A stretch of 64,000 bases of DNA from Oleomonas cavernae (GTDB taxonomy: Bacteria; Pseudomonadota; Alphaproteobacteria; Zavarziniales; Zavarziniaceae). Positions 24,231 through 29,204 of the stretch are shown here, piece by piece. The translations under genes were made by a program, and so were the position numbers. The notes beneath the pieces are model-generated. The model was not told the DNA's origin and did not search any database. It saw only the letters and a list, made by a program, of their open reading frames with translations. The stretch's first letter is position 1. Each line of letters begins with the position of its first letter. The stretch lies in contig NZ_QYUK01000011.1 in assembly GCF_003590945.1 (NCBI RefSeq), positions 3,504,909-3,568,908 on the forward strand, read 5' to 3'.

Positions 24231-24306
24231 GCCCAGGTAGCTCAGTTGGTAGAGCAGCGGATTGAAAATCCGCGTGTCGCTGGTTCGATTCCGGCCCTGG
24301 GCACCA
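24231..24306 (+). tRNA. tRNA-Phe (GAA)
   Basis: 76 bases fold as a complete cloverleaf. The acceptor GCCCAGG pairs with CCTGGGC, the D arm contains GCTCAGTTGGTAGAGC, the anticodon loop TTGAAAA reads GAA, and the T arm contains GGTTCGATTCC. The CCA end is encoded (24304-24306). GC content falls sharply just after it, suggesting use as an integration site. Confidence 0.97.
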
Positions 24307-25224: not shown

Positions 25225-26271
25225 GCATCTTGCTTGAAACCTGAATCGTCGGGATTCCCTTGGCGGCGGAATTGTGATTCATCCTCTCAGGAGGTGGATC
25301 ATGGGAAAACCTTACTCGACTGATTTGCGGGAACGGATCGAGGCTCACGTGGCTTCGGGCCATTCGCGGCGGGATGCGGCCAGGCACTTCGGTGTCAGCC
25401 CGAGTTGCGCGGTGAAGCTGGTGCAGTGGGTGGCGGCCACTGGCTCCGTGGCCCCAGCCCGCCAGGGCCGCCCGCCTGGCGGCGGCAAGCTGGCACCGCA
25501 CATGAGCTTGCTGATCGGGTGGGTCGAGGCGGAGCCCGACATCACGATGCCTGCCTTGGCGGCGCGGCTGAAGACGGTGGCGGGGGTGACGGTGCATCCC
25601 GCGTCCTTGTCGCGGGCGCTGCTGGCGGCGGGCTTCAGCTTCAAAAAAAAGCCTGCTGGCCTCGGAGTGCGGGCGCGACGAAATCCATGAGGAGCGCCGG
25701 ACCTGGCGGGTCTACCGGCAGCCGCGCCTGCGCGAGCAGCCGCAGCGCCTGGTCTTCATCGACGAGACCGCGACCACGACCAAGATGACCCGGCTGCGCG
25801 GCCGGGCACGGCGCGGGATACGCCTGAAAGCCCGCGCGCCCTTCGGCCACTGGAAGACCCAGACCTTCATCGCCGCGCTGCGCAGCGATGGCCTCACCGC
25901 GCCCTGGCTGATCGACGGGGCGATGAACCGGACCGCTTTCGAAACCTACGTCGAGACCCAACTCGCGCCGACGCTCACCCCCGGCGATGTCGTGATCCTC
26001 GACAACCTGGCCTGCCACAAAAGCGAGAATGCCAAGGCGAGCCTCAAAGCCCGCGGCGCCTGGTTCCTGTTCCTGCCCCGTTACAGCCCGGACCTCAATC
26101 CCATCGAGATGGCCTTTGCCAAACTCAAGGCCCATCTGCGTCGCATCGGCGCCAGGACCATCGATGCACTCTGGCGCGCCGTCGGCGACATCTGTGATCT
26201 CTACGCCCCAGGCGAATGCCTCAACTACCTCAAGGCCGCTGGATATGCTTCGGATTAATCGCTCGATGCTC
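25223..26271 (+). mobile_element. IS630-family insertion sequence, about 1,049 bp
   Basis: The ends are GAGCATCTTGC at the left and its imperfect inverse (GCTCGATGCTC) at the right, bounded by TA dinucleotides at 25221-25222 and 26272-26273, the target duplication expected for the IS630/Tc1-mariner group. The single transposase gene spans two frames joined at an A8 run. The element is GC-rich like the chromosome, not like the island around it, so it probably jumped in from the host genome. Both ends and the gene seem intact. Confidence 0.85.
25301..26258 (+). CDS. IS630-family transposase (two frames, probable -1 frameshift)
   Basis: Frame 1 (25301-25690) starts MGKPYSTDLRERIEAHVASG after GGAGGTG. 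It carries helix-turn-helix domains (SRRDAARHFGVSPSCAVKLV). At the A8 run 25643-25650 a -1 shift leads into SLLASECGRDEIHEERRTW and then the DDE catalytic domain: LVFIDETATTTKM (first D), VVILDNLACHKS (second D) and LPRYSPDLNPIEMAFAKLK (E). Slippery A runs for -1 frameshifting are established in this family. The fused product is about 319 residues and ends shortly before the right inverted repeat. Confidence 0.88.
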
Positions 26272-26274
26272 TAG

Positions 26275-27444
26275 TTATTGTTGGCCAATGTCACCCATAA
26301 GGTTATAATCGCCGCGAACCCAACTGACCTCTGCAATACGATACATTTGCTCAAGGTTTTCATACGGGTCACCCTGGCGCTCCGCCCTTTTCGCAAGATC
26401 GTAGAGGATAAGCGCATTAACAGCCGCGCTCCTGTTGGCGAGATTAACGACATCCAAATCCGGAAGAATTGAGTGCTCATGCACATGGCGGGATATAGCC
26501 TCGCTAATCTCCTCGCACCCAGTTGGAAACCCCTGGGTGATCATCACGGCAGCGGTGCCTGCAACCACGTCCGCCAATTGAACAGCCGGGTGATTTCGCG
26601 AATCAACAAAGTCAATGGGCTTGAAGAGACGCCACCCAAGTGCATCAGGATGACGCTTCATGCGAGCACGGCGGATGCCTGGATCGCGCTCGTCCCCGGT
26701 AAAGTAAGGAGCGATCGATTGGAGTGGCTTACTAACGTCGCACCGCACAGAAAGAGGCTTCCCGGCTGCACCCCAATAGTTTAGGTGGCTCCAAAGCCCT
26801 GACGCCGAAAGGTCCAATGTCCAACGTCCGCCATCGGGAAGCGCCGTATCCAACTGTGCATTGTCGGCGATGATTGTATCGCGATAGCCATAGGCAAAGC
26901 GCAAGACGGTTTCAAAGGGATGCTCTTGGCCCTCTGGAGAGAGAGGTGGGCGCGGACTATCAAAGAGAAAAGGCGCGTCTGCGGGGTCACGTGTACGCAT
27001 GTATTTTTGAAACTGTTCAATAGTACCCCTTGCATTGCTTTCGCCATCACTCATCCAAAGCCAAGCGTACATTGCCACGAAACGATGAAGATTCTTCTCG
27101 TAAAGAAGTCTTGGGTTATGCTGATATACCGGTTCGTAGATATACTCAAAGAACCAGCCGCAAAGCGCCAAAAGTTTGTCGTACAAGCTTACGATATAAC
27201 GCCCCTCACAGGCCTTTAGTAACTCCAGAATCAATTTTCGACCGCGCCTGGACGCCATAAGCCTACTCGCTTTCAATTCAGGCATCTGAACAGGGTAAAG
27301 CGCACGCACCCTTTGAATGGTGTCGAAAGCTTCAGGATCAGGTATCGAGACCGACGCAAACGTGAAGTACCGCTGGTCTTTTTCAAGGAGATCAGGGCCT
27401 GTATGCCCTGCTTCATCGCATGAAATTTGGAGTATCTCGGTCAT
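26275..27444 (-). CDS. DUF3800 domain protein
   Basis: 389 residues from ATG 27444. The family features are ISCDEAGHTGPDLL at the N-terminus, YFTFASVSIPDPEAF, and the C-terminal block IDFVDSRNHPAVQLADVVAG with conserved D and Q-x-A-D. DUF3800 proteins are predicted to have an RNase H-like fold with acidic active-site residues, and they are frequent in mobile and defence regions. No activity is firmly assigned. The stop codon lies 3 bases from the IS630 target TA, so the IS just missed the gene. An upstream start at 27516 adds 24 residues without homology-like character. Confidence 0.78.
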   Translation of the reverse strand: MTEILQISCDEAGHTGPDLLEKDQRYFTFASVSIPDPEAFDTIQRVRALYPVQMPELKASRLMASRRGRKLILELLKACEGRYIVSLYDKLLALCGWFFEYIYEPVYQHNPRLLYEKNLHRFVAMYAWLWMSDGESNARGTIEQFQKYMRTRDPADAPFLFDSPRPPLSPEGQEHPFETVLRFAYGYRDTIIADNAQLDTALPDGGRWTLDLSASGLWSHLNYWGAAGKPLSVRCDVSKPLQSIAPYFTGDERDPGIRRARMKRHPDALGWRLFKPIDFVDSRNHPAVQLADVVAGTAAVMITQGFPTGCEEISEAISRHVHEHSILPDLDVVNLANRSAAVNALILYDLAKRAERQGDPYENLEQMYRIAEVSWVRGDYNLMGDIGQQ

Positions 27445-27604: not shown

Positions 27605-28651
27605 TTAGTCATCCGCCACGCCAAACTGCTCCCTCAGAAACTCAATTGTCTTTGGGTCCCGTAGCTTGCAGACGATGTTTTGGTTGGCAAACAGACCGTC
27701 CGACCACTTGGCCTCAGCAATTGGGAAGGCCTTAATCCATTCCACGCCAACCGCATACTCGGCCAGCTTTGGGTCGTCCTTGTCGTGGCCAATGTTAGAC
27801 TGCGTGAGTTGCTGATCGAGCAGCGGCCCCGCCCCCGTCACAAAGTCACGCACCATCAGAGCGGGAGCGGTAACCCGCCCATAGCCAACATAGCCTGCCT
27901 GCTTCTGGTAGCCGACAATGCGATCACCCGGCTCAAGGCGACGCAACGGCCCTGAATACTTCTCTCCGGCCCCAGCAGCTATGAACCCGTAGCGTTGCAT
28001 GTCCTCCCAAGAGCGAGCGGCGCTATCGCCAACATTTACGTACCAGAGGCCCGACCAGGGTGCTTGGACACGCGCCTCCGATCGCTCGACGACCTCAGCC
28101 TGGTCGAGCAACCAATCGGTTGTCAGCAAGGTTTGACCGTCTTGCTCAAAAATCGCGAAGAAGGCGGTATTGATCGCAATGTCATGGACCTCTGACAGGT
28201 ACCGAACGATGCGCTGTGAGGAGGCATCGAAGGCGCTTGCGACAATCACCATCGTGTGCGTCCCGTTTAGCGTCTGCGGTATTGCCGCACCGAAGCGTTC
28301 CCGGAAAGCGGCCCCAAGCCGGCCTTTAAGGTAATCCTGAGCAATATCGTGAACCTGCCGTGTGGTAAGGCCCACGACCCAGCTCGCGTAGTCGAGCATC
28401 TGTGCCACAATTTCGCGAGGGGTCCGGTCGCGCTTCAGCTCGACAATCACAAGATTGCCGTCTGCGTCCAGGCCCAGGAGGTCAATTCGACCACCAAAGC
28501 CCGTCACCACCTGCCGCCCGATCACCAAGAGTTCGAGGCCCAAAAGGTCAGGTTGCTTCTCCAACCAACCTTCGATGAGGTTTTCGTTGGCCAAGCGGCC
28601 CCGCGCAACGGGCACTAGGGAATCGCCGAATAGTTGGTAGAGCCGCGTCAT
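27605..28651 (-). CDS. NucS-like (DUF91) PD-(D/E)xK nuclease with PUA/EVE-like C-terminal domain
   Basis: 348 residues from ATG 28651. Residues 1-100 hold a NucS-type nuclease core: ENLIEGWLEKQPDLLG, then GGRIDLLGLDADGNLVIVELKR with the catalytic D and ExK, then AQMLDYASWV. The C-terminal 150 residues (GLWYVNVGDSAARSWEDMQR, YGFIAAGAGEKYSG, LEPGDRIVGYQKQAGYVGYG) resemble a PUA/EVE-like fold that reads modified bases or RNA. The combination suggests a modification-dependent or structure-specific nuclease. It lies alone on this strand beside the DUF3800 gene in the island. A start at 28708 is in frame but gives a low-complexity extension. Confidence 0.75.
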   Translation of the reverse strand: MTRLYQLFGDSLVPVARGRLANENLIEGWLEKQPDLLGLELLVIGRQVVTGFGGRIDLLGLDADGNLVIVELKRDRTPREIVAQMLDYASWVVGLTTRQVHDIAQDYLKGRLGAAFRERFGAAIPQTLNGTHTMVIVASAFDASSQRIVRYLSEVHDIAINTAFFAIFEQDGQTLLTTDWLLDQAEVVERSEARVQAPWSGLWYVNVGDSAARSWEDMQRYGFIAAGAGEKYSGPLRRLEPGDRIVGYQKQAGYVGYGRVTAPALMVRDFVTGAGPLLDQQLTQSNIGHDKDDPKLAEYAVGVEWIKAFPIAEAKWSDGLFANQNIVCKLRDPKTIEFLREQFGVADD

Positions 28652-28907: not shown

Positions 28908-29204
28908 TCAGATGTGGTCCCGCTCGCTCAACTGGGCGAGAAACGCCGTCTCGTTCATCGAGGCTTTGCGCGTATTGCAGGCGCGGCAGGTCAGCACCAG
29001 GTTCGCGGCCGAATCGGTGCCGCCGCGGCACTTGGGGCGGCGGTGTTCGATGGTCTCGACGCTCATGGGTGCTGCCAGCGCCGCCGCCGAGCCGGCCTTT
29101 GCCATCGGCTGCCGGCAATAGAAGCACAGGCCGTTCTGGCGCTGCCGGGCGAGTTCGCGGAACTGGCGCAGGCGTTTGCGCTTGTCCTTGGCAGCGGCGC
29201 GCAT
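28908..29204 (-). CDS. HNH endonuclease domain protein
   Basis: 98 residues with the zinc cysteines CFYCRQPM and CRACNTRK bracketing the HNH core: SVETIEHRRPKCRGGTDSAANLVLTC, where EHRRP carries the first catalytic histidine and the N and second zinc pair follow. The N-terminus is lysine/arginine-rich. Such stand-alone HNH proteins may act in DNA repair or restriction; the role is unknown. It starts 5 bases after chaC ends, on the same strand, and is GC-rich, so it belongs to the chromosome rather than the island. Confidence 0.85.
   Translation of the reverse strand: MRAAAKDKRKRLRQFRELARQRQNGLCFYCRQPMAKAGSAAALAAPMSVETIEHRRPKCRGGTDSAANLVLTCRACNTRKASMNETAFLAQLSERDHI

Follow-up and report, generated by a model that had tools for sequence, protein, structure and literature searches.

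A putative type IV restriction enzyme joining a NucS-type nuclease to an EVE-like domain in a low-GC island of Oleomonas cavernae

Results

The fusion gene lies in a low-GC island

The window analysed here is a 64,000-nucleotide stretch of Oleomonas cavernae contig NZ_QYUK01000011.1, and it encodes a protein in which a NucS-like nuclease domain is followed by a domain resembling EVE-type readers of modified bases (Table 1). The first-pass annotation had given the boundaries of this gene exactly but named no strand. It is on the minus strand, where the reading frame runs from an ATG at 28651 to a stop codon ending at 27605 without internal stops across its 348 codons; the plus strand of the same interval is interrupted by stops. 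Because full-length relatives are found in many phyla, the gene is, by sequence comparison, evidently not a chance ORF.

Table 1 Features of the O. cavernae locus and of HEPN-like genes found upstream of relatives.
Feature	Position	Strand	Description
tRNA-Phe	24231..24306	plus	left edge of low-GC island
Two-frame transposase	25274..26258	plus	DDE_3 in second frame; inside island
DUF3800 protein gene	26275..27444	minus	PF12686, E 2.3e-9; next downstream of fusion gene
Nuclease/EVE-like fusion gene	27605..28651	minus	348 aa, ATG start, intact
Fusion protein residues 193-348	27608..28075	minus	PUA-superfamily EVE/YTH-like domain (by model)
Fusion protein residues 1-192	28076..28651	minus	NucS_C/EndoMS-type PD-(D/E)xK nuclease and C-terminal extension
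Small HNH protein gene	28908..29195	minus	upstream of fusion gene; host-like GC3 of 0.87
HEPN-like upstream genes of relatives	L039:9-740, L046:7258-8001, L049:7225-8001, L051:7258-8001, L055:7258-8001, L062:7234-7977	plus	directly upstream of nuclease gene

The earlier placement of the gene in an island was borne out by base composition. GC content falls from about 0.70 outside to mostly 0.50-0.60 between about 24.3 and 28.9 kb, with the transposase at 0.65-0.69; five chromosomal genes on the flanks have a GC3 of 0.85-0.93, and the fusion gene one of 0.68. The island is bounded on the left by tRNA-Phe and holds the transposase, two small ORFs, the DUF3800 gene and the fusion gene; the small HNH gene is probably outside it. 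No clean empty site was found, since the maf/tRNA-Phe and ChaC/DUF2125 flanks lie apart in the relatives examined. A repeat of 16 bases resembling tRNA, with copies at 24244 and 28632, was rejected as an attachment site: one copy forms the 5' part of the tRNA, and the other falls within coding sequence.

The DUF3800 gene is on the same strand as the fusion gene, with a gap of 160 bp measured from its likely ATG. Its GC3 is 0.53, and in Pfam a prokaryotic ubiquitin-like model matches it weakly and below the cut-off (E 2.4e-4). A role as obligate partner was not supported: DUF3800 is absent from the 25 listed of the 113 Pfam families found among 148 neighbours of relatives, and we regard the gene as an island neighbour.

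The N-terminal half is a NucS-type nuclease

Residues 26-89 match the Pfam family NucS_C (E 4.3e-5) at 23.9 bits, just below the 24-bit cut-off, and searches of PDB sequences returned NucS (2vld; residues 54-89, E 0.005) and EndoMS (5gke; residues 46-89, E 0.013). In these alignments the GRIDLL...VELK stretch (residues 54-73), including D57, E71 and K73, falls on the corresponding stretch of NucS and EndoMS. An AlphaFold2 model of the full-length protein, built from 76 sequences (mean pLDDT 92, pTM 0.68), superposes with VIA-align on NucS 2vld over 108 residues (Z 12.2, rmsd 2.3) and on EndoMS 5gke over 112 residues (Z 12.2, rmsd 4.2). D57, E71, K73, Q84 and Y88 are invariant in all 76 aligned sequences, namely the window protein, 70 of 80 genome loci and 5 of 18 viral loci, with near-copies, truncated genes and N-half-only matches left out. 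The PD-(D/E)xK core proposed in the first-pass annotation is thus supported by the family match, by the fold and by the catalytic residues.

The membership of this domain in the NucS_C family also raises the reading that the protein is a NucS/EndoMS-like enzyme of mismatch or lesion repair. The nuclease fold and active-site residues are indeed those of NucS/EndoMS, in which an N-terminal mismatch-binding and dimerisation domain precedes the nuclease (PMC8228993). The fusion protein instead begins with the nuclease, with no domain at the position of the mismatch-binding one, and carries its extra, PUA-like domain at the C-terminus; its scores against the two curated NucS equivalog models are 36 bits (cut-off 216) and 14.8 bits (cut-off 252). 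Because of these low scores and the missing N-terminal domain, it is distinct from NucS itself. The patchy, plasmid-borne and often defence-linked distribution described below also argues against repair, which we regard as highly improbable.

The C-terminal half is predicted to adopt a PUA-superfamily fold

Assignment of the C-terminal half rests on fold, since sequence searches are nearly silent for it. Its profile gave no match among PDB sequences at E up to 1; extending the search to E 10 brought in seven peptidase chains, which were set aside as short stretches (E 1.3-1.7). Pfam EVE (PF01878) did not match the C-domain of the window protein at E up to 1 and weakly matched 2 of 21 C-domain sequences (best E 0.003). 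A below-cut-off match to PF22307, a viral envelope glycoprotein (E 0.003), and a similar viral-envelope-type PDB match (E 0.83) were rejected as short chance matches. In hhalign comparisons the C-domain is colinear with a canonical EVE profile at a weak level (probability 50%, pairwise E 1.7e-4), and with two archaeal EVEs the probability is 6%.

The structure of the C-domain modelled alone (68 sequences; pLDDT 95, pTM 0.89) is more informative. Foldseek placed EVE proteins first, namely MJECL36 (2.3e-5), PH1033, Q88CH6 and PSPTO5229, followed by DrmAB of DISARM and THYN1. In VIA-align, where rows less than 1 Z apart count as tied, the closest structure is the EVE protein PH1033 (Z 10.4, rmsd 3.0, 118 aligned residues), followed by the EVE domain of VcaM4I (Z 9.6, rmsd 3.8, 122 aligned), MJECL36 (Z 9.5) and YTH domains from 8.7 down; canonical bacterial EVEs stand among the YTH rows and no higher (2eve 8.6, 1zce 8.2). 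The full-length model gives the order PH1033 (10.6), VcaM4I (9.8), MJECL36 (9.8) and YTHDC1 (9.3), so that the rule of the tool does not separate VcaM4I (9.6-9.8) from the best YTH rows (8.7-9.3). EVE domains are described as a PUA core with a sixth strand that follows the core and lies beside strand 1 (PMC7897488), and the C-domain model has six strands, the last of them well after the other five. Four aromatic residues, W199, W215, W305 and F321, are invariant in all 76 aligned sequences; in VcaM4I the flipped base is held by P24, W82 and Y130 (PMC7897488).

The first-pass annotation had likened this half to readers of modified bases and had proposed a structure prediction and search against PUA/EVE as the check. 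That search returned PUA-superfamily structures with an EVE protein first, and no mismatch to PUA/EVE was encountered. By model, the C-terminal half is nearest to an EVE protein, with a YTH domain also possible. We hold the fold and two-domain architecture to be close to certain, and are less sure of the functional class, EVE-like or YTH-like, and hence of the class of base that would be read.

Two further structural similarities were noted. The C-domain model matches DrmAB (PDB 7s9v and 7s9w, chain A; E 7e-4 and 8e-4), and the full-length model matches Gp54 of Bacillus phage G (BFVD G3MBC4) along its length at an rmsd of 18.5; the latter is among three matches in the viral structure library at E up to 0.001. 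Judging from these models, the reader or the fusion may be distantly related to DrmAB or to Gp54.

The C-terminal domain is also found behind other nucleases

In locus L017, from the same phylum as the window, a LEM-3-like GIY-YIG nuclease is followed by the C-domain of the fusion family. PADLOC divides this protein into two parts: residues 16-108 match PD-T4-3 (E 3e-13), which we take to be the earlier name of CMoRE, and residues 125-273 match the PDC-S11 C-half (E 4e-34). CMoRE is a homologue of the nuclease in this protein (9u75, E 7e-8; 9u7u, E 1e-6). It has been proven to act as a type IV enzyme consisting of one protein, cuts 5hmC and 5ghmC DNA and has a C-terminal modification sensor of its own (PMC12923530). 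A further copy of the GIY-YIG/C-domain fusion, on a Lichenihabitans plasmid, adjoins an IS3 element and is probably truncated.

A second exchange of the nuclease is seen on a Companilactobacillus plasmid (P0003), where GmrSD_N and GmrSD_C precede the same C-domain: PADLOC reports HEC-06 (E 4e-32) and the PDC-S11 C-half at residues 635-779 (E 2.5e-24). GmrSD is described as dependent on glucosylated 5hmC (PMC7641849), and HEC-06 reportedly proved antiviral when assayed (PMC12988326). Sequence comparison thus indicates one C-terminal reader common to three nuclease types, those of NucS, CMoRE and GmrSD.

The NucS-type pairing is by far the commonest: among 130 ORFs of the retrieved loci with the C-domain (E up to 1e-4; some genes are counted twice), 123 also have the nuclease domain, and the other seven are two L017 gene records, the plasmid-borne pair described above and three fragments. 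L017 was part of the C-domain profile but had originally been found with the window protein alone. The nuclease also occurs with another partner: L127 joins a NucS-type nuclease to a different C-half, DUF4268, and also matches PDC-S11 models. L127, L018 and L128-L131 match the nuclease half only.

Relatives are patchily distributed and in part plasmid-borne

The gene is absent from all five other genomes of the genus, two of which are only 74-75% complete, and elsewhere in the family a genome from a different genus has a 100-codon remnant. At least 527 stretches of genome contigs matched the protein, and the best 80 were kept as the locus set. Matches were found in 102 of 72,556 plasmid records, 41 of them over at least 80% of the query and 31 of them in Escherichia; a relative on a Klebsiella plasmid had no DNA match in 5,426 E. 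coli genomes. Among 50,697 phage records none matched the whole protein, and none matched the L017 C-domain. A viral scan with the single protein gave six pattern-matching stretches, none of which was confirmed, and a scan with the alignment gave 18 loci.

Within the window's phylum the C-domain profile matched 10 of 398 genomes, two of them discounted; it also matched 3 of 398 from the phylum of a Planococcus genome (a count that includes the centre genome) and 9 of 296 from that of a Streptomyces genome (including the centre genome and one short fragment). The two weak matches in L143 and L144 (E 4e-4 and 6e-4) were dropped, as they cover only 61 profile columns in proteins that are presumably DUF72-like. 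In the tree, sequences from Pseudomonadota, Bacillota, Actinomycetota, Verrucomicrobiota and other phyla are intermixed, several rows being contigs of metagenome-assembled genomes, and such mixing of phyla is expected of mobile genes. The fusion family is patchy and mobile.

Some relatives adjoin defence genes

Direct neighbours of the best 80 of the at least 527 loci were collected by a longest-ORF rule, with at most one upstream and one downstream gene per locus; ORFs below 90 aa, above 900 aa or without a stop were left out, and L041 contributed none. Type I HsdS makes up 13 of the resulting 148 neighbours, at 13 of the 80 loci. This rate is far above random chance: the 24 genomes used as a baseline, with 25 of the 80 loci including 8 HsdS-linked ones, contain 52 matches to HsdS domains over about 125 Mb, from which about 0.06 neighbours would be expected at one gene per kilobase. 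On the tree, with 10 of the 13 HsdS-linked loci included, the link requires at least 6 gains or losses, against a mean of 9.6 after shuffling; it is therefore clustered, yet gained or lost repeatedly.

Other defence genes appear beside part of the relatives. Among eight plasmid loci, four adjoin BREX, type I RM-type or NACHT genes, one adjoins a PDC-S26 candidate and three have no clear defence neighbour; in one of these three, on a Providencia plasmid, an annotated DNA cytosine methyltransferase is 2.7 kb from the relative. In Pseudomonas aeruginosa PA7 (L103:9082-11223) the relative lies between HsdS and a following ZorA (PADLOC ZorA1, E 1e-303). In the window, by comparison with the HsdS-linked relatives, nothing was recognised among the few island ORFs scanned. 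The gene for the structural neighbour MJECL36, on a Methanocaldococcus plasmid (L207:10392-10826), is a few kb from type I RM genes, which echoes the HsdS link.

In 6 of the 80 relatives a gene of one family (244-259 aa) lies directly upstream (Table 1); in five of these cases it overlaps the nuclease gene, stop codon with start codon. Each of the six proteins contains RNxxxH, presumably the motif of HEPN proteins, and HEPN_RiboL-PSP gave a weak, below-cut-off match in 3 of 4 scanned. The HEPN-like and nuclease genes possibly form a two-gene module.

This neighbour bears on the reading that the fusion protein recognises modified RNA, acting as an RNA cutter or a regulated toxin in abortive infection rather than in DNA restriction. 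Type IV-like CoCoNuTs are reportedly predicted to target RNA, and YTH and some EVE proteins bind RNA (PMC7641849). The nuclease half, however, is nearest to NucS/EndoMS, a dsDNA endonuclease, and DNA is the substrate of both swap partners, CMoRE and GmrSD; HEPN-like genes, moreover, were seen at just those 6 of 80 loci, and none was recognised among the scanned island ORFs. We consider RNA as the substrate to be very unlikely.

Discussion

Comparison with known systems

The fusion family is already known, as PADLOC PDC-S11 and as part of a class described in 2020. PDC-S11 model PDLC04916 aligns positions 12-356 of its 358 with residues 10-345 of the window protein (E 1.3e-128), a full-length match that places the protein in this family, and PDLC04915 matches at E 1.1e-66. 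The PADLOC label is that of a phage defence candidate only; our literature searches found no experimentally tested function of PDC-S11, and its co-occurrence in Streptococcus suis has been reported (PMC12813430). PDC-S11 also holds models matched by proteins with a DUF4268 C-half (L127), unlike the window protein with its EVE-like one; the label thus lumps proteins with different C-halves. Bell et al. (2020) grouped EVE-PD(D/E)XK fusions, which have the same overall architecture, into a class of predicted type IV enzymes, and their main text mentions neither NucS nor DUF91 (PMC7641849). Our literature searches found no paper describing a NucS-EVE subfamily and none pairing DUF91 with EVE. What is added here is a reader common to three types of nuclease, together with the strong link to HsdS and the HEPN-like neighbour in a subset.

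Characterised enzymes resemble the fusion protein in part. VcaM4I (EVE-HNH, 6yex) also joins an EVE-fold reader to a nuclease, with the reader N-terminal and an HNH nuclease in place of the C-terminal reader and NucS-type PD-(D/E)xK nuclease of the fusion. GmrSD, which requires NTP, and HEC-06 differ from it in their nuclease, although P0003 pairs GmrSD domains with the reader of the fusion family. CMoRE (9u75) shares the order of N-terminal nuclease and C-terminal modification sensor, but its nuclease is GIY-YIG and its sensor is reported to lack a known homologue (PMC12923530).

Proposed function and target

We propose that the fusion is a single-gene type IV restriction enzyme which recognises a modified base, probably a cytosine, before cutting, and we think this likely; it supports the modification-dependent restriction enzyme suggested in the first-pass annotation. 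Support for the restriction function is indirect, coming from the exchange of the reader with type IV nuclease families and from the defence genes beside part of the relatives. The C-terminal EVE-like domain would scan duplex DNA and flip out a modified base, which would dock between conserved aromatic residues of the reader, and the N-terminal NucS-type domain would then cut close by. A double-strand break would most likely need a dimer or two bound modified sites, as described for similar two-domain enzymes (PMC7897488).

The target would most likely be modified cytosine in phage or other incoming DNA, an assignment that we hold to be somewhat better than even. Two observations favour modified cytosine: an EVE protein gives the best match by fold, and both swap partners act on cytosine modifications; VcaM4I acts on 5mC and 5hmC DNA (PMC7897488). 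Within this class 5hmC or a hypermodified cytosine would be favoured, and 5mC is less sure because the methyltransferase on the Providencia plasmid speaks against a generic 5mC target.

The tie between YTH structures and VcaM4I (9.3 against 9.8 for the full model, 8.7 against 9.6 for the C-domain) allows a different reading, with a reader that is functionally YTH-like and an enzyme that cuts m6A-containing DNA; a YTH-McrB fusion that binds m6A DNA offers a precedent (PMC7641849). The host, however, encodes a CcrM-like adenine methyltransferase (NF050803 at 605 bits, below the 830 cut-off, with a RAMA domain, PF18755), and a generic m6A cutter would put the chromosome of its own cell at risk. 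The HsdS genes directly beside 13 of the 80 relatives argue in the same direction, as most type I systems make m6A, and the top-ranked match by fold is an EVE protein. Generic m6A is accordingly disfavoured, and we regard an m6A cutter as quite unlikely.

Beyond the preferred reading of a modified-cytosine-dependent enzyme, we wondered whether the neighbours reflect a layered defence. In this speculative and rather doubtful extension, the C-domain would be an exchangeable cassette sensing modifications that evade type I systems, with the fusion a backstop to the type I operon where HsdS is linked and the HEPN-like protein an RNA-cutting second stage in a subset. If this were true, NucS-, CMoRE- and GmrSD-type nucleases would plug into one reader cassette, and the HsdS-linked members would punish phages that dodge HsdRMS through base modification.

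For the family, PDC-S11, a defence candidate known by its label, gains a concrete and testable mechanism and a target class, and the common reader ties it to enzymes acting on 5hmC and 5ghmC DNA. A C-terminal reader shared by three unrelated nucleases would also supply new enzymes for the mapping of modified bases. For O. cavernae, the probable benefit of the fusion protein would be protection from viruses whose DNA is altered.
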